From a virus: 38,304 nucleotides of DNA. Below the pieces are notes generated by a model. It saw only the letters and a list, made by a program, of their open reading frames with translations, had not been told where the DNA came from and made no database searches. Position numbers and translations under genes: made by a program. This document shows positions 4,045 through 38,280 of the stretch, one piece after another (position 1 is the first letter of the stretch; every line of letters starts with the position of its first letter). The stretch covers positions 1 through 38,304 of IMG/VR virus record IMGVR_UViG_3300044655_001370, one strand, 5' to 3'.

Positions 4045-4298
4045 GTACTATTTACGATCGAGTAGCTAGACGTAAAAAATTATGTGAGTTAGGTAAATAT
4101 TTTACACCTGTCTTTTATAATTTTATTACAGATTTTTTCACTGATGAGTATAAGTTCGATGTTAGTAAGTTTAAAGACAAAGTACTAGGAATTAATGAAA
4201 AAGATGACTTACTTGAATATATTGAAAGTACGTATAGCAAACAGACCGTAATACTAATTAAGAAAATTCTTGCTGTTAATAATATGAAAGAGATATAA
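4041..4298 (+). CDS. Small helical phage protein (85 aa), unknown
   Basis: It starts within an ATGA overlap with the 161-aa gene and ends directly at the strong terminator hairpin, so it is the last gene of the unit. The 85 residues are predicted helical and mixed-charge (VARRKKLCELGKYF near the start; LLEYIESTYSKQTVILIKKI near the end). There is no signal peptide, membrane segment or recognisable motif. I do not know the family. Confidence 0.65.
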   Translation: MSTIYDRVARRKKLCELGKYFTPVFYNFITDFFTDEYKFDVSKFKDKVLGINEKDDLLEYIESTYSKQTVILIKKILAVNNMKEI

Positions 4299-4327
4299 AA
4301 AGAGAGCGTACAATGTACGCTCTCTTT
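4299..4327. terminator. Bidirectional terminator between convergent genes
   Basis: A perfect 13-bp stem (4299-4311 with 4315-4327) has a 3-base loop, AAAA on one side and TTT on the other. It lies between the convergent genes ending at 4298 (+) and 4332 (-) and can serve both. Confidence 0.85.
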
Positions 4328-4331
4328 CTGT

Positions 4332-4868: not shown

Positions 4869-7502
4869 ATGACTACTACATTCCTGGACACACTAAATTC
4901 ATTATTACCTGCGCCCAAAGATTTCCACCGTATCGCATATTCTGATACAGCAAACCTACCAACGTATTTAACCCCGACTGATCCGCACGATTTTGCATAC
5001 GATTATATCGCTGGTGTACTGAAGGTAAAGACTGGTGGTACATGGACAAACGTAGATGCAACAAAAACGCTTATCTTTAAAGAGTATACTGTTAATTGTG
5101 TACCACCTGACCCATATTACGGTATCGCATATAATGGTGTTCCTGATATTGATTGGCCGCCTGAATTGGGTTGGGGATCAATATATGTATCAAACAGTTG
5201 GACGCCTATATTAGCGTCAAACGCTCAAACCGGTGAACTCGCTGTTATTAACGAACTAACTCACATGTTAGCTATGACGCCAGCTGGGATTAAACTAAAC
5301 TGGGCTGAGTTAGATCAATCACCTACAGGCTCTGGAGGGTTTGTTCATGAAAATGATCCAACTATTAACAGACCTATTTTGGTAACAGCTGTATTGACAA
5401 ACCCGACGTTAACAGATGCGTTGATGACAGATTCTGTTATAGAACGCACACTAGCACTAACAACGACATTAGTTGATCCTACTATCACAACTGGTACGTT
5501 AACAGACTCTAGTATAATTACCCCGACAGTATCTGGTGGTACATTTTCTAGTCCAACGTTATCAGCTCCTACAATTACAGATGCTACAAATAACAATGAA
5601 ATGTCGTACGACGCTACGATATTTACTGCTCAAATTAATGATAGTACGTTAGACGATGCAACATTAAATAGTCCAAATTTGAATACAGCAACTATAACTT
5701 CATCTTCATTGGATGATGTTGTTATAACATCAGCAACTATGTCTGCGTCAACCGTAAATAGTTCAAATTTCACAGATGCAACTATTACAGCTAGCTCAAT
5801 GAGCAACTCAGCAATAGATAATGTAACAATTGATATTGCTACTGTAGATGGCGCTACTATAACTGATGCAATTATTAGTACGAGTAATATTTCGTTTACT
5901 AATGCTACAGATATGACTATCGTAGATAGTACAATGAATAACTCATCTATAACCAATACAGCTGTTGATGCATGCTCTATAGATAACTCAACTTTAAATA
6001 CTGCAATTATATCTAGTTCAACTATAGATATGTCACAGGTATCTGATGTAACTATTACAGCTAGTACAATGAGTGATTCAATTATTGCTACTACAACAAT
6101 TTATACCGCTACAATAAATGCACCAAATATAAATGACGCTGTTATAGCTAGTTCAACGGTAAATGGCGCAACAGTTGATGATGCTACTATTACAAATAGC
6201 TCAATGGTGGACGCAACTATTACAGCTAGTACAATGGGTACTTCAACTATATTCAATTCATCCATTGATAACGCTACTGTAACCAGCTCAACGTTAACAG
6301 ATGCGACTATTAGTACGAGTGCAATTTCATTTACTACTATTTCTGATGCGACAATAAGTGACACAATAATAAACACTTCTGTTTTGAATTCACCAGAATT
6401 AGTTACACCTGATCTAGGAACACCAACAGCTGGTGATTTACGTAATTGTACATTCCCAATCGCTACAGATTCTGATTTGGGTAGTGTTATGATTGATAAC
6501 GATTCTATAACAATTTCAGGTACAGGTGTTATTAAAGCGGCATCAACGAGAGTCGTTAAAGAATTAGTTCGTAACAATACCGGTACAACAATTTTAAAAG
6601 GTCAAGCTGTATATATTAGCGGTGCAAATGGTACTAATGTATTAGTGTCGTTAGCACGAGCAAACGCGGAATCTACATCAAGTAAAACACTAGGTATAGT
6701 TGAATCTGATATTTTTAACGGTAACGCTGGTTATGTAGTTGTACATGGAATGTTAACCGGGATAGACACTTCAGCTGCAACTGCAGCTGGTGATGCAATA
6801 TGGTTGAGTCCAACAGCACCGGGTGGGTTTGTTTACGGTAATGCAGGAAAACCAGTAGCCCCAGATCATTTAGTATATTTGGGTGTTGTAACACGTAAAC
6901 AAGCTAATAACGGTGAGATCTTCATCAAAGTACAAAACGGGTATGAACTCGATGAGATTCATGATGTTTCACTTACAGCTCCTACAGATGGTCAAATTAT
7001 TTCATATGAAGCGTCAACATCGCTTTGGAAAAACAAATCATTATCAACTCAAGCTAATAATTGGACAGCACTACAATCGTTTGCAGGTTCAGTATCTAGT
7101 TTAGCTACTGTGTTTACTAATACCAGTGAAGTGGTAACTGTATCGAATACAGCTGCTAACAATACAATAGCGTTTGATGTTACATCTCAAGCTGTTTTAT
7201 ATTATACAGCAAACGCTGCTGGTAATTGGATTGTTAATTTTAGAGCATCATCAACAACAGCGCTAGATGATGTAATGGTCATAGGGCAAAGTGTTACATT
7301 ATCATTCTTGGTAACACAAGGTTCGACAGCATATTACAATACTACAGTACGGGTTGATGGTACAACAATTACGCCAAAGTATCAAGGTGCAACAGCTATT
7401 ACATCTGGTAATGCTAATGGTATTGATATGTACACATATACAATTATTAAAACCGGTGCAGCAACATTTACCGTTTTAATGTCTTTAACTAATTTTGGGT
7501 AG
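4869..7502 (+). CDS. Tail fibre protein with pentapeptide-repeat shaft (877 aa)
   Basis: The architecture has three parts. Residues 1-177 form an N-terminal domain with an Asp/Pro/Trp-rich PPDPYYGIAYNG region, probably the attachment part. Residues 178-517 are an unbroken run of about 68 five-residue units of the type DATIT / ASTMS / SSTVN, with Ala/Ser/Thr at position i-2 and Ile/Leu/Val/Met at i. Residues 518-877 begin with GTPTAGDLRNC, then a typical fibre domain (ELVRNNTGTTILKGQAVYI ... LVYLGVV ... FIKVQNGYELDEIHDV) and a beta-rich C-terminus ending LTNFG. I recognise the VRNxTGxTIxKGxxVYI to NGYELxExHDV block from virion and fibre proteins of many large phages. It is the first gene of the cluster and should be a virion fibre. 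The binding target is unknown. Confidence 0.8.
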   Translation: MTTTFLDTLNSLLPAPKDFHRIAYSDTANLPTYLTPTDPHDFAYDYIAGVLKVKTGGTWTNVDATKTLIFKEYTVNCVPPDPYYGIAYNGVPDIDWPPELGWGSIYVSNSWTPILASNAQTGELAVINELTHMLAMTPAGIKLNWAELDQSPTGSGGFVHENDPTINRPILVTAVLTNPTLTDALMTDSVIERTLALTTTLVDPTITTGTLTDSSIITPTVSGGTFSSPTLSAPTITDATNNNEMSYDATIFTAQINDSTLDDATLNSPNLNTATITSSSLDDVVITSATMSASTVNSSNFTDATITASSMSNSAIDNVTIDIATVDGATITDAIISTSNISFTNATDMTIVDSTMNNSSITNTAVDACSIDNSTLNTAIISSSTIDMSQVSDVTITASTMSDSIIATTTIYTATINAPNINDAVIASSTVNGATVDDATITNSSMVDATITASTMGTSTIFNSSIDNATVTSSTLTDATISTSAISFTTISDATISDTIINTSVLNSPELVTPDLGTPTAGDLRNCTFPIATDSDLGSVMIDNDSITISGTGVIKAASTRVVKELVRNNTGTTILKGQAVYISGANGTNVLVSLARANAESTSSKTLGIVESDIFNGNAGYVVVHGMLTGIDTSAATAAGDAIWLSPTAPGGFVYGNAGKPVAPDHLVYLGVVTRKQANNGEIFIKVQNGYELDEIHDVSLTAPTDGQIISYEASTSLWKNKSLSTQANNWTALQSFAGSVSSLATVFTNTSEVVTVSNTAANNTIAFDVTSQAVLYYTANAAGNWIVNFRASSTTALDDVMVIGQSVTLSFLVTQGSTAYYNTTVRVDGTTITPKYQGATAITSGNANGIDMYTYTIIKTGAATFTVLMSLTNFG
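5400..6419 (+). repeat. Array of about 68 pentapeptide units (340 aa)
   Basis: Codons 178-517 parse in one register into five-residue units, with central positions filled by Ala/Ser, Thr/Ser and Ile/Val/Leu/Met. There are no insertions; even the atypical DATNN-NEMSY pair keeps register. The pattern is that of pentapeptide-repeat quadrilateral beta-helices, but with Thr where Asp/Asn is usual and Ile where Leu/Phe is usual. Confidence 0.75.
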
Positions 7503-7508
7503 GTTATT

Positions 7509-8372
7509 ATGCCTTTACTAACTAGCTTAGGCTCTAATTATTCTACGAAAAAACGTGGTCCGAGACAGGTTAATATTCAAAATGCTGGACAACAAGCGTA
7601 TATTACTCCAGGATCATATACGTGGGTTGCACCACCGGGGGTAACCTCAATTTCAGTCGTTAGTGTCGGCGGTGGTTCAGCTGCAGCAATATTTGGTTCA
7701 GCTAGTGGTGGATCACCTCGGACAGTCGGTGGTGCTGGTGGGGCGTTAGCGTATAAAAATAATATTACTGTTGTTCCAGGTACTAGTTATACGGTAGTCG
7801 TTGGTGCTGGTGGACAAGCAGATCGAGCTAACGGTAGTGATAGTTGGATTAGTGTTGCAGGTACTATTTACGCTGGTGCAAGAGGTGGTGGTACAGCTGC
7901 ACCTGGTACATATAGTGATGGTACTTCAACGGCGTTAGGAGGTGTACCTTTTGGTACATTCGATGGTGGTGGAACCGGTGGTGGAGCAGGTGTTGGTAAC
8001 TCATTGATCGGTGGAGGTGGTGCTGGTGGTTATTCAGGTAATGGGAATTCCGGTACAGGTGGAGCAGGTGGTAGTGGGTACTGCAATGGTACGAACGCTT
8101 CAGGTGGAGGTGGTGTTGGTATTTTAGGTCTAGGTCCTTCTGGTGCAAATTCAACTACCGTTACAGCTGGTGGAGGTGGTGGTTCTGGCGGTGTTGCCGG
8201 AGCTGGTGCAGCTGGTAATATATCCGGTGGTGGAGGTAAATATGGCGGCGGCGGTGGACAAAACGATGAAGGCTCTAAAACAACAGCGGTGTTAGGTGGC
8301 GATGGTGCGGTTCGTATAATTTGGCCAGGAACATCACGTCGGTTCCCATCTACACATACCGGTAACTTATAA
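7509..8372 (+). CDS. Glycine-rich tail adhesin (287 aa)
   Basis: The N-terminal part (residues about 30-120) has the beta-sandwich pattern AYITPGSYTWVAPPGVTSI ... AYKNNITVVPGTSYTVVVGAGG that precedes poly-glycine in many phage adhesins. Residues about 130-265 are dense GGG and GGxGG tracts that could form polyglycine-II helices, as in the Gp38-type tip adhesins of T2-like phages. The C-terminus GAVRIIWPGTSRRFPST is shared almost word for word with the protein ending at 29023. It probably binds host surface polymers at a fibre tip. It starts 6 bases after the pentapeptide fibre gene and is likely co-expressed with it. The gap 8373-8476 after it holds only a late-promoter-like motif and AT-rich sequence. 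Confidence 0.75.
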   Translation: MPLLTSLGSNYSTKKRGPRQVNIQNAGQQAYITPGSYTWVAPPGVTSISVVSVGGGSAAAIFGSASGGSPRTVGGAGGALAYKNNITVVPGTSYTVVVGAGGQADRANGSDSWISVAGTIYAGARGGGTAAPGTYSDGTSTALGGVPFGTFDGGGTGGGAGVGNSLIGGGGAGGYSGNGNSGTGGAGGSGYCNGTNASGGGGVGILGLGPSGANSTTVTAGGGGGSGGVAGAGAAGNISGGGGKYGGGGGQNDEGSKTTAVLGGDGAVRIIWPGTSRRFPSTHTGNL

Positions 8373-13073: not shown

Positions 13074-13469
13074 ATGCCGGCACCAAATATATTAGCACCT
13101 ATTGAGATCTACGGGAAAACAGCGTTTTTAACACCAACCGTTAATACTCAAGTTGTGTTACTCGCAAACCTAGCAAATAGTGGGCAAGTTTTTAAGATTA
13201 ACAGTATTGTCGCTGCTAATAGTGATGGTACTAGTGCGGTTAACGCAACTGTATCTATTTACACAAACGGAGCAGTACCTCAAAATGCAGCCCCAGCTGG
13301 TGGTACATCATTCCCATTAGTGAGTACCGTATCAGTTCCATCAAATGCATCATTAATTGTGCTCGATAAATCATCAACTATATACATTGAAGAAAATGTA
13401 TCTTTAGCTGTGACATCTGGCGCAGCAAACAAATTAACATTTGTAGTTAGTTACGAATTAATAAAATAG
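13074..13469 (+). CDS. Small beta virion protein, paralogue of 27408-27797 (131 aa)
   Basis: It aligns along its whole length with the 129-aa protein at 27408: IYGKTAFLTPTVNTQVVLLA against MYGKTTYLTPPVNTNVVLLA, then APAGGTSFPLVSTVSVP against APSGGTAYPLIYLVSVP, and a shared C-terminal VSYE. The plan is a small beta-sandwich with a LDKSSTIYIEENVSLAV hairpin. It occupies the same place in both blocks, between a fibre gene and an FN3/poly-Gly adhesin, and so may be a connector or clamp in one fibre complex. It is more distantly like the 108-aa protein at 8477. No enzyme motifs are visible. Confidence 0.65.
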   Translation: MPAPNILAPIEIYGKTAFLTPTVNTQVVLLANLANSGQVFKINSIVAANSDGTSAVNATVSIYTNGAVPQNAAPAGGTSFPLVSTVSVPSNASLIVLDKSSTIYIEENVSLAVTSGAANKLTFVVSYELIK

Positions 13470-20541: not shown

Positions 20542-23500
20542 ATGAGCAATAGATATCGTGGCGGAATATTATCATCAACACCACCATTAACAGATGGTAC
20601 ACCATACACTGGAGCTGCAAGCGGTGTTTGGAACTTAATTCAACATGCAAGACAAAAACAATCAAATTTGTGGCCAAAAGGTGAAGGTGCTTATGCACCA
20701 ATGGACCCGACCGTAACCGCTATTGTACCTAGTAACCAAAGTTTATCTGTTGTATTTACAGCTCCATCAGATACTGGTACATTACCGATAACAAAATATA
20801 CGGCGACAGTTCAACCAGGTAATATAATTGTAGAGAGTCCTACACCTAATTTGATTGTTTTTGATTTGCAGAATGGTACCACATATGATGTGACAGTGTC
20901 AGCATCAAATAGTTATGGTACCAGTATCAAAAACACTACATATAATTCTAAATTAGATCCAGATCCATATATACAAAACAATATATTATTTTTTGATTTC
21001 GACGGTCCAGATAATAGTATAGTAGTAACAGATTTAAGTCCTAAGCCGCAAAGTGTTCTTAGATATGGTAATACCTCTATATCTACTAAAGATTGGAAGT
21101 TTGGTAATAGTAGTTTATACCTTGATGGTATATCATCTTATTTGTATTTCCAGTCACCATTTAATGGTATATCTACTACAACACCGTTTACTATCGATTT
21201 CTGGTTTAAACCAAATACCCTAACTATAAACTCAGGCGTTTGTATATTAGGTATTAACTCAGCAGCAGATGGATCTGATGTATTAACAATTGGGCTAAAC
21301 TATTCTGTTAATAATGTAGTGGTACTATCTAATTTAACTATTAATTTAAATTCATGGAACCACATAGCAGTATCATCTACTGGTACCGCTATGACCCTAT
21401 ACATTAACGGTGAATCGGCCGTATCAACAGCTCCACCTACTACCCCGTTGTCGTCTTGCGTGTTGGGTATAGGCGCTGAATTCGATGGTGCAAATGGTGG
21501 TACACCCGGTAACTATGCTCGAGGGTTTGTAGATAGATTTAGAGTTACATCAGGTGTCGCAAGATACACAGCTAAATTTAACCCTGATACGACACCACAT
21601 AGTGACACATACCCATTTCAAACAACTCCGTTCGTAAGTGGGGCCCCTGTATACTTAGACCCGTATACATCTAATAATATACTTTTATTAGAATTTGAGG
21701 GTTCGCAAGGTAGTCAAGTGTTTACTGATACAAGCAGTAAAAAAACGGTAGCAACGGTTGTTGGGTCACCGTATATAGTTACTAGCATGAAAAAATTTGG
21801 TGATAGTTCACTATATCTCGATGGTGTGTCTGCGTATTTGTATTACTCTACTGTGTTCAGTTCTATATCATCAACGACAACTCCGTTCACTATAGATTTT
21901 TGGTACTACCCTACAACTTTAACTATTAATAGTGGTGTGTGCGTACTAGGTATTAACTCTACAACCGGTGGCGCTAATGTTTTACTTGTAGGTAGGGATT
22001 ATTGGGTTAGTGATAGTACAATCGCATCGAATATAAATATACCGCTTAATCGGTGGAACCATATTGCTATATCATCAGATGGTGTCACCATGGTATTATA
22101 TATTAACGGTACTGCAGCATATAGCACCGCACCACCTACTACACCGCTTTCATCGTGCGTGTTGGGGATAGGTGCTGAATTTGATGGTGCAAATGGTGGT
22201 TCACCAGGTAACTACGCTCAAGGTTATGTTGACCGGTTTAGAGTTGCCGCAAATGTAGCTCGGTATACATCGTCTTTTAACCCAAATGTTGACCAAGCAT
22301 CTCCACTAGGTGATATCTACTATGGTTACCTGTCGTTATATATATCAGGTGATCATACCGCTACTAGCGGTTTAGGTGACGCTAGTTTAATTTCCAGAAC
22401 AATGTCAGTGGTAGGTACCGGTGTTGTAAGATCAACAACTCAAAAGAAAGTTGGGTCATATTCAGTATATTTCCCCGGTACAGGTAATTTATCCAATACA
22501 TCAACCGCATCAAATATTATTGGTTTAAATAACGATTTTACAGCTGAGTTTTGGATGTACCCAACTACAGCACAAGGAGCGTGGACGTGTATCATGGGAA
22601 ATTATCTTGATGCGGCTTATGGTTCTCGAAGCTCGTGGGGTTTTGGTTATGATGGTGGGGGTACGCTACTAGGTTGCAGCTTTATGTATGCGAGCGGCTC
22701 AGCAAACGGACTACAGTACTCAACACCCCTACCCGTTAATACATGGACTCATGTAGCTGTAGTACGATACGGTAATACATTTACTATGTATATTAATGGT
22801 AATTCTGTATCTACGTTTAATTATAGTGGAGCAATATACGATGGTGGTTCATACTTTGAACTAGGAGCTCTAATGGGAGGTAACTACCGGTTTACCGGAT
22901 ACTTAGATGATGTGCGAATTTATAAAAATATCGCAAAATACACGAGTAACTTTACCCCTAGCACTATTGGATCATCACAATATATAACTTATGGTACCGT
23001 AGTGCCGCCTACACCACCGGTTAATTTAGTAGCAACCAAAGGTGCTGCAAGTGCGACAATAACATTTGACCCACCCGTTAATTCTGGTGGAGCTGATATA
23101 TCTCAATATAAATTATTAGTTATACCTGGCTATACTATAATACCACTCAATAGTACATCTACAACGGTACTATATTTGTTAGATACTATTGAATATTCGT
23201 TTAGAGTATCAGCTGTAAATATTGCTGGTAATAGTGTTTATAGTCAAGCTAGTAATGTTATTCAACCTGATCCACCGACCGTACCAAACGCACCTACTAT
23301 CACAAAACTAGTAAGTGGCAACACTACAATCCAAGTTATCTTTGATCCGCCTACCGATTTAGGTGGATCAAACATTATATCATATACCGTGGCTGCGAGT
23401 CCTGGTAATTTTACGGTAAGTGGATCAGCTTCACCATTAACACTAACCGGGCTAACAAACGGTACTGAATACACTATCAATGTAACTGCTACGAATAGTA

Positions 23501-24930
23501 CAGGTGTTAGTGCTCCTAGTGTGAGTAGTAATCCAACAAAACCATACACCCTACCTGGCGCTCCTACTAACGCTGTTGCAACCGCAGGCATACTACAAGC
23601 ATCAGTAGCATTTACAGCTCCAGCTTTCGACGGTGGGTCAGAGATTACTTCGTACACAGTGACATCATCACCAGGTACTATTGTAAGTTCCGGTTCAGCA
23701 TCACCTGTTGTGGTGTCCGGATTAACAGGCGGAACAACGTACACCTTTACCGTCAAAGCAAACAATGCTGCCGGGTCAAGTGTAGCTAGTGCAGCTTCTT
23801 CTTCAGTGAGTATTGCCATTCCAATACCTGGAGCGCCAACAAACGTAACTGCTACAGCTGGTACTGCACAAGCGACCGTTTCATTTACAGCGCCATCTTA
23901 TACCGGATCTTCCCCTATTACATCATATATGGTTACAGCGTCGCCTGGTAATATAATAGGTTCTGGGTCAGCTTCACCAATCACGGTAACCGGGTTAACA
24001 AACGGTGCGACGTATACGTTTACAGTAACAGCTATCAATTCCTATGGTGTGAGTCCAGCTAGTACGGCATCCGCTTCGTTGGTAATTCCAGTTCCACCGT
24101 TTAATATAACTGTTGCTGGTGGAACAAACATAGTAGTTAATAAAGCGTGGATCATTAATAATAGTGGTGGGGTTTGGAGTGGCACAGGAGCAGCTACTGT
24201 GACTGTAACAAATACAGGACAAATAAAATCAACAAGTACTTCCACCGCAGCGCTAATTTTTGCATCAGATTTATCGACCATGCCGTCCGGCTCATCTGTC
24301 CGCTTCGTCAATAACTCTGGCTGCTATGTCGCAGGTAGAGGAGGGGGTGGTAGAACCTGGGGTAACGGTGAAGCAGCGGGTGGGTCTAATGGTGGTACAG
24401 CTATTCAAGCTTTAGCGAGTATTTCAATTACAAATAATGGTATCATCGGTGGTGGTGGTGGGGGTGGCGCATGTTATTGGGGCGCTGGCGGCGGTGGTTG
24501 GGGTGGTGGGCCAGGTAGTACACCAGGTGATGGTAGAGCTGGTGGGGGCGGTGGGGGCGCTGGTGGAGGTGAAGGTGGATACGGTAGTCAAGGTTACGGG
24601 GGTTGGGGTAGCAGTGATTTAGGTGGAGCCGGTGGTAACGGTGGGTATGCATCTGGTGGTCATTCAGCTGGTGCTGGTGGTGCAATAATGGGAGGTGGAG
24701 GTGGTTCTGGCTCAACACAATACGCTGGACCTGGCTCAGCGGGTGGATCAAACGGTGGCGCTGGTATTAATAATAGTAATTATTGTGGAGCAGGTGGTGG
24801 TTCAGCAGGTGCCGCAGGTGGTAGTACATCGCCAGCTGGTGGTAGTGGCGGTTCGGGTGGTGCAGCTATTTCAGGTAACGGATATATCTCATGGACCGCA
24901 ACAGGTGCACGGTACGGTAGCATAGGGTAA
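20542..24930 (+). CDS. Giant FN3/LamG/poly-glycine adhesin (1462 aa)
   Basis: The start follows an AGGTAAGG ribosome site. Domains in order: shared N-terminal module (1-50, DGTPYTGAASGVWNLIQHA); one FN3 (about 55-140); three LamG/ConA-like domains (about 141-345, 372-580, 596-800), each ending in a DRFRV or DDVRI strand then ARYT/AKYT; four FN3 (about 825-1180); a beta linker (about 1185-1270) with VRFVNNSGCYVAGRGGG; and a poly-glycine C-terminus (1270-1462) ending GYISWTATGARYGSIG, nearly as in the 771-aa adhesin. LamG domains typically bind glycans, and FN3 domains act as spacers. It is probably a flexible sugar-binding arm. It is placed between a terminator and a late promoter, as a single-gene unit. 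LamG1 and LamG2 share an almost identical stretch. Confidence 0.82.
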   Translation: MSNRYRGGILSSTPPLTDGTPYTGAASGVWNLIQHARQKQSNLWPKGEGAYAPMDPTVTAIVPSNQSLSVVFTAPSDTGTLPITKYTATVQPGNIIVESPTPNLIVFDLQNGTTYDVTVSASNSYGTSIKNTTYNSKLDPDPYIQNNILFFDFDGPDNSIVVTDLSPKPQSVLRYGNTSISTKDWKFGNSSLYLDGISSYLYFQSPFNGISTTTPFTIDFWFKPNTLTINSGVCILGINSAADGSDVLTIGLNYSVNNVVVLSNLTINLNSWNHIAVSSTGTAMTLYINGESAVSTAPPTTPLSSCVLGIGAEFDGANGGTPGNYARGFVDRFRVTSGVARYTAKFNPDTTPHSDTYPFQTTPFVSGAPVYLDPYTSNNILLLEFEGSQGSQVFTDTSSKKTVATVVGSPYIVTSMKKFGDSSLYLDGVSAYLYYSTVFSSISSTTTPFTIDFWYYPTTLTINSGVCVLGINSTTGGANVLLVGRDYWVSDSTIASNINIPLNRWNHIAISSDGVTMVLYINGTAAYSTAPPTTPLSSCVLGIGAEFDGANGGSPGNYAQGYVDRFRVAANVARYTSSFNPNVDQASPLGDIYYGYLSLYISGDHTATSGLGDASLISRTMSVVGTGVVRSTTQKKVGSYSVYFPGTGNLSNTSTASNIIGLNNDFTAEFWMYPTTAQGAWTCIMGNYLDAAYGSRSSWGFGYDGGGTLLGCSFMYASGSANGLQYSTPLPVNTWTHVAVVRYGNTFTMYINGNSVSTFNYSGAIYDGGSYFELGALMGGNYRFTGYLDDVRIYKNIAKYTSNFTPSTIGSSQYITYGTVVPPTPPVNLVATKGAASATITFDPPVNSGGADISQYKLLVIPGYTIIPLNSTSTTVLYLLDTIEYSFRVSAVNIAGNSVYSQASNVIQPDPPTVPNAPTITKLVSGNTTIQVIFDPPTDLGGSNIISYTVAASPGNFTVSGSASPLTLTGLTNGTEYTINVTATNSTGVSAPSVSSNPTKPYTLPGAPTNAVATAGILQASVAFTAPAFDGGSEITSYTVTSSPGTIVSSGSASPVVVSGLTGGTTYTFTVKANNAAGSSVASAASSSVSIAIPIPGAPTNVTATAGTAQATVSFTAPSYTGSSPITSYMVTASPGNIIGSGSASPITVTGLTNGATYTFTVTAINSYGVSPASTASASLVIPVPPFNITVAGGTNIVVNKAWIINNSGGVWSGTGAATVTVTNTGQIKSTSTSTAALIFASDLSTMPSGSSVRFVNNSGCYVAGRGGGGRTWGNGEAAGGSNGGTAIQALASISITNNGIIGGGGGGGACYWGAGGGGWGGGPGSTPGDGRAGGGGGGAGGGEGGYGSQGYGGWGSSDLGGAGGNGGYASGGHSAGAGGAIMGGGGGSGSTQYAGPGSAGGSNGGAGINNSNYCGAGGGSAGAAGGSTSPAGGSGGSGGAAISGNGYISWTATGARYGSIG

Positions 24931-27407: not shown

Positions 27408-27797
27408 ATGGCAAGCCCAAATATAATAAGCATTTCATCGATGTACGGTAAAACGACTTATTTAACCCCACCTGTTAATACTAACGTTGTATTGTTAGCA
27501 AATGCTGCGTCGAGCAATAAAGTTTATAAAGTTAATAATATAATAGCTACAAATGTCGACGGTACCAATTCTGTAACCGTAACAGTCGCTATATATTCAA
27601 ACGGTAGTGTCGCACAGGGTAGTGCACCATCAGGGGGTACAGCTTATCCGCTAATATATTTGGTATCTGTTCCTGCTGGTGCAGCGTTAGCGTTGTTAGA
27701 TAAATCAATATATTTGGAAGAAAACACCTCATTGATTGTAACCTCGGGTACAGCAAGTAAAATAAATTACTCTGTATCGTACGAAGAAATTGCGTAG
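27408..27797 (+). CDS. Small beta virion protein, paralogue of 13074-13469 (129 aa)
   Basis: It starts directly after the previous stop, with GGAGG in that gene's last codons. It is full-length similar to the 131-aa protein at 13074: SMYGKTTYLTPPVNTNVVLLA, ATNVDGTNSVTVTVAIYSNG, then LLDKSIYLEENTSLIVTSGTA. It is all-beta, has no cysteine, and lacks a signal peptide. It occupies the same slot in both blocks, between a fibre and a poly-glycine adhesin, which argues for a structural role in joining or capping them. Confidence 0.65.
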   Translation: MASPNIISISSMYGKTTYLTPPVNTNVVLLANAASSNKVYKVNNIIATNVDGTNSVTVTVAIYSNGSVAQGSAPSGGTAYPLIYLVSVPAGAALALLDKSIYLEENTSLIVTSGTASKINYSVSYEEIA

Positions 27798-29901: not shown

Positions 29902-30374
29902 TGGCTACAAAAATACAATTTAGACGTGATACAGCAGCAAATTGGACTACTAATAACCCAATATTAGCTCAAGGTGAGTTAGCGTTAGATCTGACCATGA
30001 ACTATTTTAAAATTGGTGATGGTACAGCAGCGTGGAACTCATTAGCTTATTCTAGACCGGTTGCAATATTTGAAACAAGAGTAGCTGTTGCAGCGAGTGC
30101 TATTGATTTAAATTTAGGTAACTATTTTACAAAAACTATAAGCGGTGCTACTACCTTTACTGTTAGTAATGTACCAGCGAGTGGTACTGTTGGTGAGTTT
30201 ATATTAGATCTTACAAACGGTGGTAGCGCTACCGTAACATGGTGGTCTGGTATTAAATGGGCTAGTGGTACTGCTCCTACATTGACAGCATCTGGTAGAG
30301 ATAGTTTAGGGTTTTATACGTATGATGCAGGAACAACTTGGACAGGTGTGGTAATCGGTAAGGATCTAAAATGA
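29901..30374 (+). CDS. Mtd-N-like fibre or virion protein (157 aa)
   Basis: Residues 1-50 match the Mtd N-terminal-like domain: MATKIQFRRDTAANWTTNNP, ILAQGELALDLTM, FKIGDGTAAWNSLAYS. The remaining hundred residues are a beta domain (FTKTISGATTFTVSNVPASG ... VTWWSGIKWASGTAP ... YTYDAGTTWTGVVIGKD), a common fibre-tip or connector pattern in large phages. Unlike its paralogue at 16639 it has no collagen-like linker or WYP repeats. It overlaps the giant LamG gene by ATGA, so it may dock that protein to the tail. Confidence 0.72.
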   Translation: MATKIQFRRDTAANWTTNNPILAQGELALDLTMNYFKIGDGTAAWNSLAYSRPVAIFETRVAVAASAIDLNLGNYFTKTISGATTFTVSNVPASGTVGEFILDLTNGGSATVTWWSGIKWASGTAPTLTASGRDSLGFYTYDAGTTWTGVVIGKDLK

Positions 30375-33300
30375 GTGTTCGTAAAATTTTAAATGCATCG
30401 TCTGGTACTACAACTAGTACTGCGACTGCATCAGGACCGTCTGATGCGAGTTTTGGTAGTACATCGTTGTTGTTGACCGGTGATCCTAATGTCGTAGATC
30501 CAAATTTTGCTAGTGTATCGTTATTGTTGACCGGTAATGATTTGCTAGATAAGTCTAATAATAAGTTTTCAATTACTAATAGTGGAACAATTGTTGTATC
30601 AAATACTACTAAAAAGTTTGGTACCGGTAGTTTGTACTTCCCTAATAGTGGACGGTTAACTATTACTGATTCAACTATAATGAGCTTCACAGGTAATTTT
30701 ACTATAGAAGGTTGGATTATTTGCAATAGCAATAGAACACAGCAAAACGCTTTTTATAATTATGTATTTTCGTCGATAGATGCCGGTAATTGGTCATTAC
30801 CTTATATCACCGGTGTAGTTGATTATACCGGTAAATTTAGTTTAAATTTTAATGCTGGTGGGGCTGCTGTTGGTTTTTTGTCAGATTCTGCAATAACAAA
30901 AAATATTTGGCACCATTTTGCGCTAGTAAGAAGTTCTGGAACATTAGCTGCGTACCTGAATGGTGTGAGTATGACAGCAAGTGGGTCAGTGAGTAATAGT
31001 TCTTCGATATCCCAAACAGGTTTAATAATCGGCGATTCAAGATGGAACACCGGCTCTGAAACTTGGGACGGTTACATTGACGACTTTAGAATAACCAAAG
31101 GTGTTGCTCGATACACTACTAATTTTACACCGCCTGTTCAAGCATTACCATCTCATGAGATATTAGATAGTTCTGTTTATAGCTTACCTGTTACCACTTA
31201 CGGTAACGCTAGAATCGATACAGCTACTAAGAAATATGGTACTGGTAGTATGTATTTTGATGGTACTGGTGATTATGTAACTATCCCGTCTACAGCTACT
31301 GGGTTCAGTGGTGATTTTACAGTAGAAGGTTGGTGCTACTACAGTAATGCGTCTGGGTATGCAACTATTTTTGATGCTAGAGTAGCAGGTACGTATTCAG
31401 GTGTTTTACTATATGTTAATGTTGGTACTAGTTCTATAAACGTAACCGTCGGAGCTAGTACAGTTATTATAACCGGAGCTACCCCAGCAGCAAATACATG
31501 GTTCCATTTTGCATTATCTAGAAGTGGTACATCCGTTTATTTGTTTATTAATGGTTCACAAGTAGGTACAACTGCAACTAACAGCACATCGTTCCCATCA
31601 AATATATTATACCTAGGTGCATTTTGTGAGCCAACTGCAAACTTAAATGGGTATATCGATGATTTCCGTATAACCAAAGGAACAGCTAGATACACAGCCA
31701 ATTTCACACCTCCAACAGCAGCATTACCGACAATACCTCCAACTATCGCAGCTGACCCTTGGTGGGGCAATGTATCGTTGTTGTTAGACGGTAACACAAC
31801 CGACGCATACGATCCGCATTGGCAGAATGTTAGTTTGATGTTAACTGGTGATGATTTTATTGATTGGTCTAACAATCATTACGCCGTTACAAAATCTGGT
31901 GCAATTGCAACTGATAATACAATTAAAAAATATAATTCAGGTTCAATTAAAATCACAACTGCTGATACTGATTTTGCTACCGCTAATACTGGTTCAGCAT
32001 TAGGGTCGTCAAATTTTACTATAGAATTTTGGTTTAGGTCATCAAGTACAACAGGCTATTGTGCTCCATTTATGGTAGATAATACCGCTGGGGGTTATGC
32101 TGGTATAACCTTTACTAGAAGTGGAGCATTTTTGTCGACGACTGGAAATTCATGGGAAATGTTTGGGTATGGATCAACTCAAGCTACAGCTTCTTTTGAT
32201 GGTAACTGGCACCATGTCGCTTTATGTAGATCAACGGTTAGTGTGTATTTATTTATCGATGGGGTATCGGTTGGAGCACCATATAATATTTCAACAAATT
32301 CTATAACTGCGACCCCAGCTGGTGCCGTATTGGTTGGTAAGCAGTCCACATCAACAGGGTTTACCGGGAATATTGCTGATTTTCGCATCACTAAAGGTGT
32401 AGCTCGATACACAGCAAACTTTACACCACCTATTGCAGCACTTCCATCATATAAAATCCAAGACCGTACCCAGAATAACCTGACACTCACACCTTATGGT
32501 AACGTTCAACTTAGCACTGATGTTAAGAAGAATGGTACCGGTAGTATGTTCTTTGATGGTACTAGTGATTACTTATCCACTGGTACATTAGTTACAGGAC
32601 TACAATTAGGTACAGGTGATTTTACAGCTGAATGTTGGGTATACCATGTATCTAGTGCAGTAGAATACGAAACATATTTTTGTGGTGGTACCAATGGGTT
32701 CGATATTCGTAGATCTAACACAGGTAAATTTGAAGTAGTACGTCCAGGTGTGACGAATGTTAAATCGTCTACTGCATCTATTCTAAGTAACCAATGGGTA
32801 CATGTATGTGCAGTTCGAATATCAGGTACTACATATCTATACATAAACGGTGTTTTGGATAGTAGTGTTGTGGACACGAATAATTACACCGGTACAGGTT
32901 ATTTTGCTATTGGTAGTACCTCACAATCCGCAGGTGTGTATTCAATGAAGGGATATATTGATGATCTTCGTATAACCAAAGGTGTAGCAAGATACACAAG
33001 TAACTTTACCCCACCTAGCCAGTCATTTGCTACGCAGTATATCTCAACAGGTTTTGACCCTAATTACGCTGACGCGTCGTTGTTATTGACAGGTGAAGGA
33101 ACTAATGGAAGTACAACGTTTACCGATTTGAGTAGTAGTCCTAAGACAATAACACCTTATGGAAATGCTCAGATTAGTACTGCACAGAAAAAGTATGGTA
33201 CCGGTAGTATGTCATTTGGTGGTAGCGGTAGCTATATAGCATTCGATGATGTAACAGGGTTAGGAAGTAATAATTTTACAATTGATTTTTGGATGTATGT

Positions 33301-35038
33301 TAACGCTTCAGGTTGGGATTTATTCAGTTTAGGTGCTACTGCTAATACCGACCATGCGGGGTTTGCATTTGTTAATAGTGGTGTAGTTTATGCTTCTAAT
33401 ACTGGTAGCTCCTGGCAACATACGATAATAAATTGTGGTTCATTCCCACTTACTACGTGGATTCACATGGCATTCGTTAGAGATGGAAATTCTCTAAGGA
33501 TATATAACAATGGTGCGTTAGTAAGTACAACTACCATATCAGGAGCATTTGCAAATAATTCTGGAAAAAACTTTATTGGTGTTAAAAGTGATAATATGAC
33601 ATATGGGTTTAATGGTTATGTAGATGATTTTCGTATCACTAAGAATGTTGTTCGCTACACTACTAACTTTACACCACCAACCTATGCATTAGCTACTACA
33701 ACTGGTACCTCAATTGACGCAAACCGTGCTGATACATCGTTATTGCTAAGAGGTAATGGTACTAATGGTAGTACATCATTTACAGATGAGTCACCTAACA
33801 ACTTGACTGTGACTAATAATGGATCTGTTACTGTTAATACTACAACTAAGAAGTATGGTACGGGTAGTATATCTTTTAGTGGTAGTAATTATTTAAGTAT
33901 TCCTAATTCAAGCAGGTTAGTGTTCGGTGCTGGCGATTTTACGGTTGAAGCATGGATTAACTTAACATCAATACCAGGTGCTAATGTTTCGACTATTGCT
34001 GGTGTATGGGATGCATCAACAGGGTACGGATGGATAATACAAACCGACCCATCGATGTTAAGAATTGTAACTACTGGGCTGGTATTTACTTCCGCTAGCT
34101 GGGCTCCAGCTACAAATATTTGGTATCATATAGCGGTATCTAGAAGCAGTGGATCAATAAGAATATTCGTTAATGGAACTCAAATTGGTACAACTGCAAC
34201 AGTTACTGGCGATATACAATCAACTTTTACATTAAATATTGGAATGAATCGCGATGGTGGAAATTCATCATTGCCATTTAATGGATATGTAGACGACCTC
34301 CGCATTACAAAAGGCTACGCACGATACACTGCTAACTTTACACCACCTACCTACGAAGCTCCAATCGTAACCGGTACAGAGTATGATTATAATTATGCTC
34401 AGGTTATTTTGTTGTTGAATGGTGATGGTACTAATGGTAGCACCAAATTTACAGATTTAAGTAGCAATCAAAACAAGGTTACTGCGTCTGGTACCGCGCA
34501 AGTATCAACTAGTACAAAAAAGTTTGGTACTGGTAGCATATATTTGAACGGTGGGTCAACATCATATCTAGATATTCCGTACACTAGCGCGTTTAATTTT
34601 ACATCTGTTAACTTTACAATTGAAGCGTGGGTAAATATCGTCAATGTATCTCCTGCAAATCCTATATTATCAAGATGGCATAGTGGTGGCGACTGGGTTT
34701 ATGCTGTGTACGGAGGTAAACAGTATTTTGGCTATAATGGTGGATCCTTAAATAAAACTAGCACTACCACGCTAAGTAATAACACCTGGTACCACGTCGC
34801 TGTGGTTCTGTCCGGAACAACACTTACGTTCTATCTGAATGGTACAGCTGATGGTTCGTTCACTGGTGTAACCGTTACAGATTCATCTACAAATAATCCA
34901 CAGGTAGGTCAAGCTAATCAAGGTTCAGAAATGCTGAACGGATATATTGACGATTTACGCGTTACAAGAGGTATCGCAAGATACACTCAAAACTTTACAC
35001 CACCAACAGCACCTTTACCTACTTCTGGAGGATATTAA
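30371..35038 (+). CDS. Giant LamG-repeat adhesin (1555 aa, seven LamG domains)
   Basis: After a short Ser/Thr-rich N-terminus, seven LamG/ConA-like domains follow, ending near residues 250, 445, 685, 880, 1100, 1323 and 1543. Most units have an S(L/M)LLTG-type start, a D-S-S-x-N turn, KKFGTGSLYF-type strand, FTIEGWI strand, WHHFALVRSSG or equivalent, YLNG turn, and the closing IDDFRITKGVARYTxNFTPP. The linkers are Pro-rich (PPTAALPT). This is the Laminin_G_3 pattern, typical of glycan-binding modules. It is likely the largest adhesin of the particle, with several carbohydrate-binding sites in tandem. It has no poly-Gly or FN3 and no S74 domain. A GGAGG ribosome site in its last codons serves the following chaperone-like gene. 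Confidence 0.85.
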   Translation: MSVRKILNASSGTTTSTATASGPSDASFGSTSLLLTGDPNVVDPNFASVSLLLTGNDLLDKSNNKFSITNSGTIVVSNTTKKFGTGSLYFPNSGRLTITDSTIMSFTGNFTIEGWIICNSNRTQQNAFYNYVFSSIDAGNWSLPYITGVVDYTGKFSLNFNAGGAAVGFLSDSAITKNIWHHFALVRSSGTLAAYLNGVSMTASGSVSNSSSISQTGLIIGDSRWNTGSETWDGYIDDFRITKGVARYTTNFTPPVQALPSHEILDSSVYSLPVTTYGNARIDTATKKYGTGSMYFDGTGDYVTIPSTATGFSGDFTVEGWCYYSNASGYATIFDARVAGTYSGVLLYVNVGTSSINVTVGASTVIITGATPAANTWFHFALSRSGTSVYLFINGSQVGTTATNSTSFPSNILYLGAFCEPTANLNGYIDDFRITKGTARYTANFTPPTAALPTIPPTIAADPWWGNVSLLLDGNTTDAYDPHWQNVSLMLTGDDFIDWSNNHYAVTKSGAIATDNTIKKYNSGSIKITTADTDFATANTGSALGSSNFTIEFWFRSSSTTGYCAPFMVDNTAGGYAGITFTRSGAFLSTTGNSWEMFGYGSTQATASFDGNWHHVALCRSTVSVYLFIDGVSVGAPYNISTNSITATPAGAVLVGKQSTSTGFTGNIADFRITKGVARYTANFTPPIAALPSYKIQDRTQNNLTLTPYGNVQLSTDVKKNGTGSMFFDGTSDYLSTGTLVTGLQLGTGDFTAECWVYHVSSAVEYETYFCGGTNGFDIRRSNTGKFEVVRPGVTNVKSSTASILSNQWVHVCAVRISGTTYLYINGVLDSSVVDTNNYTGTGYFAIGSTSQSAGVYSMKGYIDDLRITKGVARYTSNFTPPSQSFATQYISTGFDPNYADASLLLTGEGTNGSTTFTDLSSSPKTITPYGNAQISTAQKKYGTGSMSFGGSGSYIAFDDVTGLGSNNFTIDFWMYVNASGWDLFSLGATANTDHAGFAFVNSGVVYASNTGSSWQHTIINCGSFPLTTWIHMAFVRDGNSLRIYNNGALVSTTTISGAFANNSGKNFIGVKSDNMTYGFNGYVDDFRITKNVVRYTTNFTPPTYALATTTGTSIDANRADTSLLLRGNGTNGSTSFTDESPNNLTVTNNGSVTVNTTTKKYGTGSISFSGSNYLSIPNSSRLVFGAGDFTVEAWINLTSIPGANVSTIAGVWDASTGYGWIIQTDPSMLRIVTTGLVFTSASWAPATNIWYHIAVSRSSGSIRIFVNGTQIGTTATVTGDIQSTFTLNIGMNRDGGNSSLPFNGYVDDLRITKGYARYTANFTPPTYEAPIVTGTEYDYNYAQVILLLNGDGTNGSTKFTDLSSNQNKVTASGTAQVSTSTKKFGTGSIYLNGGSTSYLDIPYTSAFNFTSVNFTIEAWVNIVNVSPANPILSRWHSGGDWVYAVYGGKQYFGYNGGSLNKTSTTTLSNNTWYHVAVVLSGTTLTFYLNGTADGSFTGVTVTDSSTNNPQVGQANQGSEMLNGYIDDLRVTRGIARYTQNFTPPTAPLPTSGGY

Positions 35039-35527: not shown

Positions 35528-36370
35528 ATGACAACAAGCCTATCGAGTTTGTTAGGTGTTACACCTATAGCTGGTACACTACCGGTAGCATACGGTGGTA
35601 CAGGAGTCACTACTTCGACAGGTAGTGGTAACTTAGTATTATCCACCAGCCCTACATTAGTATCACCAATATTAGGTACACCTACCAGTGGTGTTTTAAC
35701 TAATTGTACAGGGTATACATACACCAACCTATCTGGTACGGTACCGGTTTGGAATCAAAATACAACAGGTACAGCTGCTAATCTATCAGGTACACCAACG
35801 TTACCGACTGGTACCACTCTAGTTGCACCTGCGTTAGGTACACCAGCAAGTGGTAATTTTAGTACAGGTACATTTACTTGGCCAACTTTTAATCAAAATA
35901 CAACAGGTACAGCTGCTACATTTACGAGTACAACTCAAAACTCACAATTCAACTCAATTGGTATTGGTACCGCAGCTTCCGCTACAGCCGGTGAGATTAG
36001 AGCTACTAATAATATTACCGCGTATTATTCAGATGAAAGATTAAAAACCAATATTGTTAATATTCCAAATGCGTTAGAAAAAGTTCTTCAATTAAACGGA
36101 GTAACATTTAACGCAAATGATCTCGCTGCTACATTTGGCTATACTAATCAATCGCAACAGGTTGGTGTTATAGCTCAACAAGTTGAAGCTGTTTTACCTC
36201 AAATCGTTGTACCTGCACCGTTTGATATTGGTAGAAATGAAGACGGTAATGAATACTCGATAAGTGGTGAAAACTTCAAAACTGTTCAATACGAAAAATT
36301 AGTTCCGTTATTGATTGAAGCTATTAAGGAATTAACTATGGAAGTTAATAAGTTAAAAGGTGTTAACTAA
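35528..36370 (+). CDS. Tail fibre with C-terminal Peptidase_S74 self-cleaving chaperone (280 aa)
   Basis: Residues 1-165 are short fibre-shaft repeats, with LGTPTSGVLTNCTGYT and WNQNTTGTAANLSG / FNQNTTGTAATFTS as repeated units. From about 166 the intramolecular chaperone domain begins: YYSDERLKTNIVNIPNALEK, then GVIAQQVEAVLPQIV, and YEKLVPLLIEAIKEL with a closing coiled-coil helix. The conserved Ser-Lys dyad for self-cleavage is S168 and K173 (S-D-E-R-L-K). In endosialidases and other fibres this domain helps trimerise the fibre and then cuts itself off N-terminal to the Ser. The mature fibre would thus be about 167 residues. The stop overlaps the next ATG. Confidence 0.88.
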   Translation: MTTSLSSLLGVTPIAGTLPVAYGGTGVTTSTGSGNLVLSTSPTLVSPILGTPTSGVLTNCTGYTYTNLSGTVPVWNQNTTGTAANLSGTPTLPTGTTLVAPALGTPASGNFSTGTFTWPTFNQNTTGTAATFTSTTQNSQFNSIGIGTAASATAGEIRATNNITAYYSDERLKTNIVNIPNALEKVLQLNGVTFNANDLAATFGYTNQSQQVGVIAQQVEAVLPQIVVPAPFDIGRNEDGNEYSISGENFKTVQYEKLVPLLIEAIKELTMEVNKLKGVN

Positions 36371-37365: not shown

Positions 37366-38280
37366 ATGGCACTACCTACAGCAGGATCAGCAATATCCTT
37401 AAACCAAGTTAATGTTGAATTAGCATTAACGGGTACTACCGCTATTCAGATGAATCAGACAAATGTTCGAACTTTGTTTGCAAAACCTAGTGGTGCAATT
37501 TCAATGAGTGATGGGCATGGTAAAAGTGCCGGTGCAGCTGCAATAACGTCGGTTGTAATATCTGGACCTACAACTTACTCAGGTGGTACATACGTGGCTG
37601 GAACAGCACCAGCCTGGACAGTACTAATTACATATTCGAATAGTACTACTAGTACGGATTGTACACTATTAACATGGGGGCAGTACACTGGTACGTTTAA
37701 TACAGGTACCACGGTTGTAGTTGGGCTTAAAACATTAGTTGTTACCGCTGCAAAGGTAACATTATCTTCACTAGGTAACATAGGTGGTGGTACAGGATAT
37801 ATTAAAGCAGTCGCAGGGAACGGAATAGCGGGATACATAAATGTTACGTGGTCATGTTTACCACTGAATACGTTAATTACAATGGCTGACAATACTCAAC
37901 GAGCAATGAGAGATATTAAAGTTGGTGATACCGTAAAAGCTATTGACCCCACCACTCATGAAATATCTAATGAACAAGTAACATTCGTATTAGACACAAA
38001 TATCTCATACGATTTAATACGTATAACCTGCGCAAATAATTCTATAGTAGAGCCAACACCAGAGCATGAAGTATGGATACGTAGAAACGGTGTTACTATG
38101 TGGGTAGAATCAAAAGATGTATTAGTTGATGATGAGCTTTTATCAGCAGATCTATCATATACTGGTGTAACCTCGGTGGACCCTATTCATTGCGATGACG
38201 GCGTTCAAGTTGGTAATATATCTGTTGCAAATGCAAAAGTTTATTTTGCAGAAAGATTATTAATGCATAACACAGGCTAA
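37366..38280 (+). CDS. Virion protein with C-terminal Hint (intein-like) self-processing domain (304 aa)
   Basis: An AAGGA ribosome site precedes the ATG. Residues 1-55 (MALPTAGSAISLNQVNVELA; TLFAKPSGAISMSDGHGKS) are a tail-protein N-terminus common in large phages. Residues about 58-163 are a beta domain. Residues 164-302 form a Hint domain: block A C164-LPLNTLITMADNTQ...DIKVGDTV, block B T231-P-E-H234 with EVWIRR, and block G VYFAERLLMHN with H301-N302. T303 could be the +1 nucleophile, but only T303-G304 remain before the stop. All residues for intein chemistry are thus present with a two-residue C-extein, and no homing-endonuclease region. It probably cleaves itself or ligates, releasing or modifying the N-terminal part. 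This resembles bacterial intein-like domains. Confidence 0.8.
   Translation: MALPTAGSAISLNQVNVELALTGTTAIQMNQTNVRTLFAKPSGAISMSDGHGKSAGAAAITSVVISGPTTYSGGTYVAGTAPAWTVLITYSNSTTSTDCTLLTWGQYTGTFNTGTTVVVGLKTLVVTAAKVTLSSLGNIGGGTGYIKAVAGNGIAGYINVTWSCLPLNTLITMADNTQRAMRDIKVGDTVKAIDPTTHEISNEQVTFVLDTNISYDLIRITCANNSIVEPTPEHEVWIRRNGVTMWVESKDVLVDDELLSADLSYTGVTSVDPIHCDDGVQVGNISVANAKVYFAERLLMHNTG

Follow-up and report, generated by a model that had tools for sequence, protein, structure and literature searches.

We infer that a 350-residue array of 70 five-residue units forms the rigid shaft of a modular, probably homotrimeric fibre in an uncultured phage, and that each chain most likely folds into its own right-handed quadrilateral solenoid, a reading to which we give a probability of roughly 0.5. 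The array is encoded in the IMG/VR virus record IMGVR_UViG_3300044655_001370, which comes without a host assembly and whose 38,304 bases are referred to as the window in the rest of the text. In the proposed structure, the 70 pentads of each chain would coil as a beta-solenoid of the pentapeptide-repeat type with four pentads per turn. The Ile, Leu, Val and Met residues of position 4 and the Ala and Ser residues of position 2 would be stacked in the interior, while faces rich in Thr, Ser, Asn and Asp and nearly devoid of positive charge would be exposed to the solvent. The resulting rod would space two downstream domains from an N-terminal attachment domain.

The whole fibre-type ORF spans positions 4869 to 7502 on the + strand and codes for 877 amino acids. 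Its domains follow one another in the order N-terminal domain (residues 1-167, 4869-5369), pentapeptide array (residues 168-517, 5370-6419), phage-cement-like beta domain (residues 561-720, 6549-7030) and C-terminal domain (residues 762-877, 7152-7499), all on the + strand. A single full-length relative was found in IMG/VR, on the contig designated L002; it shares 75.6% identity and also measures 877 amino acids. Its flanking ORFs are conserved in the same order with 65-90% identity; of the next large ORF (9243), the L002 locus shares no more than the first 22 residues. Family searches matched genes of the window to tail fibre, minor tail, baseplate wedge and virion structural families. These tail and baseplate neighbours, together with modules that recur in annotated tail fibres, identify the product of 4869-7502 as a tail-fibre-type protein. 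The view of the initial annotation that the array occupies the shaft position is supported. The N-terminal domain, which is 82-100% identical to L002 in each 40-residue block, had L002 as its sole relative in searches of viral contigs and phage records; by its position alone, it is presumed to be the virion-attachment end. The adjoining Gly-rich ORF at 7509-8372 (PF21722 Gly_rich_2, phrog_4474; 82% identical in L002) possibly codes for a fibre tip or an adhesin partner. On the other side of the fibre ORF, a stem-loop of 13-15 bp at 4297-4329 lies between convergent genes and is terminator-like on both strands.

The array had initially been described as about 68 Ser/Thr/Ile-rich units at 5400-6419, which corresponds to residues 178-517. 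It is real, and its register extends two units further upstream, to residue 168 (base 5370), giving 70 units without interruption. Position 4 is occupied by I, L, V, M or F in 66 of the 70 units, Ile being found in 34 and Leu or Phe in 17. Position 2 carries a small residue in 68 units (Ala or Ser in 45), and position 3 is mostly Thr or Ser, with Thr in 38 units and Asp or Asn in 6, confirming the reported replacement of Asp/Asn by Thr/Ser and of Leu/Phe by Ile/Met/Val. Weak units lie at residues 238-247 (DATNN NEMSY) and 343-347 (FTNAT). To gauge chance, we generated 10,000 composition-preserving shuffles of residues 241-515, a segment in which 52 of 55 pentads have their hydrophobic residue in phase. 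The shuffles peaked at 28 and none of the 10,000 reached the observed value, which excludes a chance origin of the register. The units are very diverse (96% distinct) and Tandem Repeats Finder detected no DNA tandem repeat at the array, which shows a periodicity maintained by selection on the protein; for the same reasons, we consider recent DNA amplification an unlikely origin. With 2 Lys/Arg against 35 Asp/Glu, the surface of the array would be strongly acidic, like that of DNA-mimicking pentapeptide proteins, although a fibre role fits better than DNA mimicry.

The alignment of the ORF with L002 is gapless, with no indel across the 350 array residues. The array nevertheless diverges faster than the N-terminal domain, most of its blocks being only 42-85% identical. 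Divergence is unevenly distributed within the units: positions 2 and 4 are identical at 108 of 140 sites, compared to 124 of 210 for positions 1, 3 and 5 (Fisher p = 0.0005), and both proteins have a hydrophobic residue at position 4 in 66 of 70 units. Positions 2 and 4 face inward in pentapeptide-repeat proteins, and their better conservation is the pattern expected from a solenoid core. The same observations bear on whether the array could instead be a mostly disordered, low-complexity Ser/Thr linker. Such a linker would account for the high Ser/Thr content and for the low confidence of the models described below, but a strict five-residue hydrophobic phase that is kept in L002, an array of equal length in both relatives and the conservation of the inward positions make this reading very improbable. 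When the array alone was used as a tblastn query, it found no match in viral contigs and only weak ones in phage.

Profile searches assign the array to a recognised kind of repeat. PF13599 (Pentapeptide_4) scored 44.7 bits against the whole protein and 47.4 bits against the array alone, above its gathering cut-off of 38; L002 remained under this cut-off with 32.8 bits, and the PF00805 profile did not match the whole protein. A column-wise residue shuffle still scored 35.4 bits (E = 1.2e-8) and a full shuffle gave no match, indicating that the PF13599 match reflects composition and period, i.e. a positional code, and that it speaks for a structure of the same type without proving homology or common descent. 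In a phmmer search of the PDB, the top matches were pentapeptide solenoids, both natural and designed ones (4yfo, 1.4e-8; 2j8k, 8.9e-7). Pentapeptide repeat proteins are recognised by a contiguous run of eight or more tandem pentapeptides (PMC8145042), and the array has 70 in a single register, 66 of them with a hydrophobic residue at position i (position 4). The strict A(D/N)LXX motif does not describe it, given Asp or Asn at i-1 in 6/70 units and Leu or Phe at i in 17/70. The 2019 revision of the consensus, which accepts a small or uncharged i-2, a charged or any polar i-1 and a strongly hydrophobic i including I, M and V (PMC7337050), fits the small i-2 of 68/70 units, the hydrophobic i of 66/70 and the predominance of Thr and Ser at i-1. 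The suggestion that the array represents an undescribed subfamily was thus too strong: an existing database family had been set against it beforehand, PF13599 already scores the array above cut-off, the relaxed consensus covers it, and other phage tail proteins also carry long pentad arrays. The array is a long, unusually Thr/Ile-rich example of an already recognised repeat kind. It shows to what extent Thr at i-1 and Ile at i are compatible with the pentapeptide-repeat code, which would help tune profile searches, a relevant matter as a relative as close as L002 already falls under the Pfam cut-off.

We then modelled the protein with AlphaFold2 as a monomer only, using an alignment of 15 sequences without named phage records for the full protein and two sequences for the array alone. 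In the full-length model, a beta strand recurs every five residues through the array with a pLDDT of about 42-59 over most of its length, compared to 73-96 for residues 561-690. The array alone likewise formed a strand every five residues (pLDDT 52.8, pTM 0.51). The best structural matches of this low-pLDDT model were the pentapeptide-repeat proteins EfsQnr (Z 17.6), MfpA (17.6) and NP275-276 (17.5), with an rmsd of 2.7-3.4 over 159-185 residues, closely followed by tailspike beta-helices (Z 14-17). The fold therefore leans towards a quadrilateral solenoid without being established: the quadrilateral beta-helix initially proposed gains weak support from a predicted solenoid whose nearest neighbours are pentapeptide-repeat proteins, tempered by a pLDDT of about 53, by monomeric modelling and by tailspike beta-helices that are nearly as close.

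A single-chain solenoid of another shape is conceivable, for instance one with three pentads per turn and rows of Thr on its faces as in the spruce budworm antifreeze protein. The profile of that protein (CfAFP, PF05264) matched the array weakly (E 0.01), PDB entry 1m8n was hit at E 0.2, Thr occupies both positions 3 and 5 in 12 of the 70 units, and a weak 3-unit periodicity (z 1.97) was detected in P0001 only. However, the PF05264 score of 16.3 lies under the cut-off of 25.9 and is equalled by a column-shuffled control (16.7), the modulo-3 effect is absent in L002 (z 0.36), and the AlphaFold2 models look like four-sided solenoids, so that we regard three pentads per turn as quite unlikely. 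More generally, the array sequence gave no consistent signal for a superperiodicity of 3, 4 or other units. An antifreeze role for the array was also judged unlikely.

The modules downstream of the array bear on the oligomeric state of the fibre. The array ends in a linker motif, NSPELVTPDLGTPTAGDLRNC (residues 508-528, 6390-6452, + strand), which shares 71% identity across 21 residues with another ORF of the window, the tail-fibre-like one at 35528. In the following domain, PF09956 was absent from the whole-protein search and reached a borderline 24.2 bits (cut-off 24) when residues 561-720 were excised; 11 of 19 relatives matched PF09956 at E<1. Foldseek returned 8hdt_G, 9kzj_H and 9kmg_b as its top matches, with a probability of 1.00 but E values of only 2e-3 to 2e-2; these are the capsid cement or decoration proteins of Pam3, T1 and FCWL1. 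About 38 viral contigs carry the cement-like domain, preceded there by unrelated N-terminal parts and stalks, suggesting that the array fills the shaft slot of a modular fibre. Some of these stalks are collagen-like Gly-X-Y stretches (L010/L270, L264 and L267), in which Gly makes up as much as 76% (L264) or 60% (L267) of every third position. The C-terminal domain (phrog_5906, PHROG 1.1e-20) recurs in structural and tail-fibre ORFs of Roseobacter phage and cyanophages. A similar beta-tulip cement protein, gp24 of phage E217, is trimeric (PMC10329688), and this, together with the collagen-like stalks, suggests that the whole fibre is trimeric; tail fibres are mostly trimers (31 of 38 predicted; PMC13232217). 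We conclude that the fibre is probably a homotrimer.

Three chains could, however, interdigitate into one triple-stranded beta-helix, each contributing one pentad per face, in which case the monomer would not fold at all. This arrangement would explain the low confidence of monomeric models and the lack of any 20-residue periodicity in the array sequence. It would also suit a cement-like module that has a trimeric counterpart in E217 and that follows collagen-like, necessarily trimeric shafts elsewhere, and it has a precedent in the T4 gp5 spike, which is built on a short repeating motif with 23 strands per 100 A (PMC4576200). Yet that known regular case consists of glycine-containing octads, VxGxxxxx (PMC4576200), whereas 7 of the 350 residues of the array are Gly. 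Furthermore, a small position 2 combined with a hydrophobic position 4 is the pentapeptide-repeat signature, and both sequence and structure matches in the PDB favour single-chain pentapeptide solenoids. Interdigitation thus appears rather unlikely. The choice affects the length of the shaft: separate solenoids would yield the rod of about 17 turns and 8 nm initially proposed, while interdigitated chains, with one pentad per strand at the scale of T4 gp5, would extend to about 30 nm.

Fibre shafts set the reach of phage receptor-binding tips. We tentatively envision a trimeric pentapeptide shaft, in which three quadrilateral solenoids run in parallel or the pentads interdigitate into one triple helix, and which is exchangeable with the collagen-like stalks found before the cement-like domain; although possible, this broader proposal is doubtful. 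If true, it would represent an architecture for which we found no solved phage example. Pentapeptide solenoids that substitute for collagen-like stalks before the same module would amount to a swappable rod of tunable length. Our search of the open-access literature found no description of Thr-rich pentapeptide fibre shafts.

Elsewhere in the window, two very large ORFs (20542-24930 and 30371-35038) produce many overlapping, shifted mutual alignments, indicative of common repeated domains; the annotations of their phage relatives are those of lectin-like and baseplate wedge proteins. ORFs 13074-13469 and 27408-27797 are paralogous (58% identity across 130 amino acids), and the tail cluster that holds them contains further internally duplicated modules. 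By eye, the C-terminal half of the ORF at 37366-38280 (CLPLNTLITMADNTQRAMRDIKVGDTV...HEVWIR...VYFAERLLMHNTG) is a candidate self-processing domain of the Hint/intein type, carried by a structural protein.

Pentad arrays are known from other phages. Arrays of 20 to 104 in-phase units with a hydrophobic fourth position occur in P-SSP2, P-GSP1, Christensenellales phage NatCom_6392, Lactobacillus phage 3-521 and Arthrobacter phage Mimi (104 units), several of them in proteins annotated as tail or tail-fibre; the Pfam families PF25296 (Decapeptide) and PF07902 (Gp58) cover some of these arrays. They differ from the present one by a third position that is mostly Lys, Ala, Gln, Asn or Ser and by unlike flanking domains; in several of them, two types of unit alternate, e.g. 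DGAIT-SAKIA or AGSIT-ATALA. A degenerate DNA pattern (DCNDCNNT x8) missed the window itself, where Ser codons are AGY, and returned mostly alternative-frame artefacts; a stricter Thr pattern retrieved genuine but short relatives. Arrays with Thr at position 3 and Ile at position 4, as here, are found in other viral contigs but are shorter, with 10-36 units: 34 TATIN units in L024/L078 and 10-13 units in L119 and L144/L164. The L024 protein has another C-terminal domain and scores 18.9 with PF13599, below cut-off; this 391-amino-acid phage ORF (L024:820-1992), with its 34 near-regular TATIN pentads, would be a cleaner fold test for Thr/Ile pentads. The phage cement proteins (PF09956; Pam3, T1, FCWL1) resemble residues 561-720 by a borderline profile match and by predicted fold, but they are free capsid decoration proteins, whereas here the module is one domain within a fibre-type protein. 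The closest known systems are the pentapeptide repeat proteins of the PF13599/PF00805 group (MfpA, Qnr, HetL, AlbG, NP275-276). The array departs from them by having Thr instead of Asp/Asn at i-1 (38 vs 6 of 70 units) and Ile instead of Leu/Phe at i (34 vs 17 of 70), and by belonging to a fibre-type phage protein with a fold predicted at low confidence. It shares with them tandem pentads with a small i-2 and a large hydrophobic i, a period maintained over tens of units, and the best PDB matches by both sequence and predicted fold.
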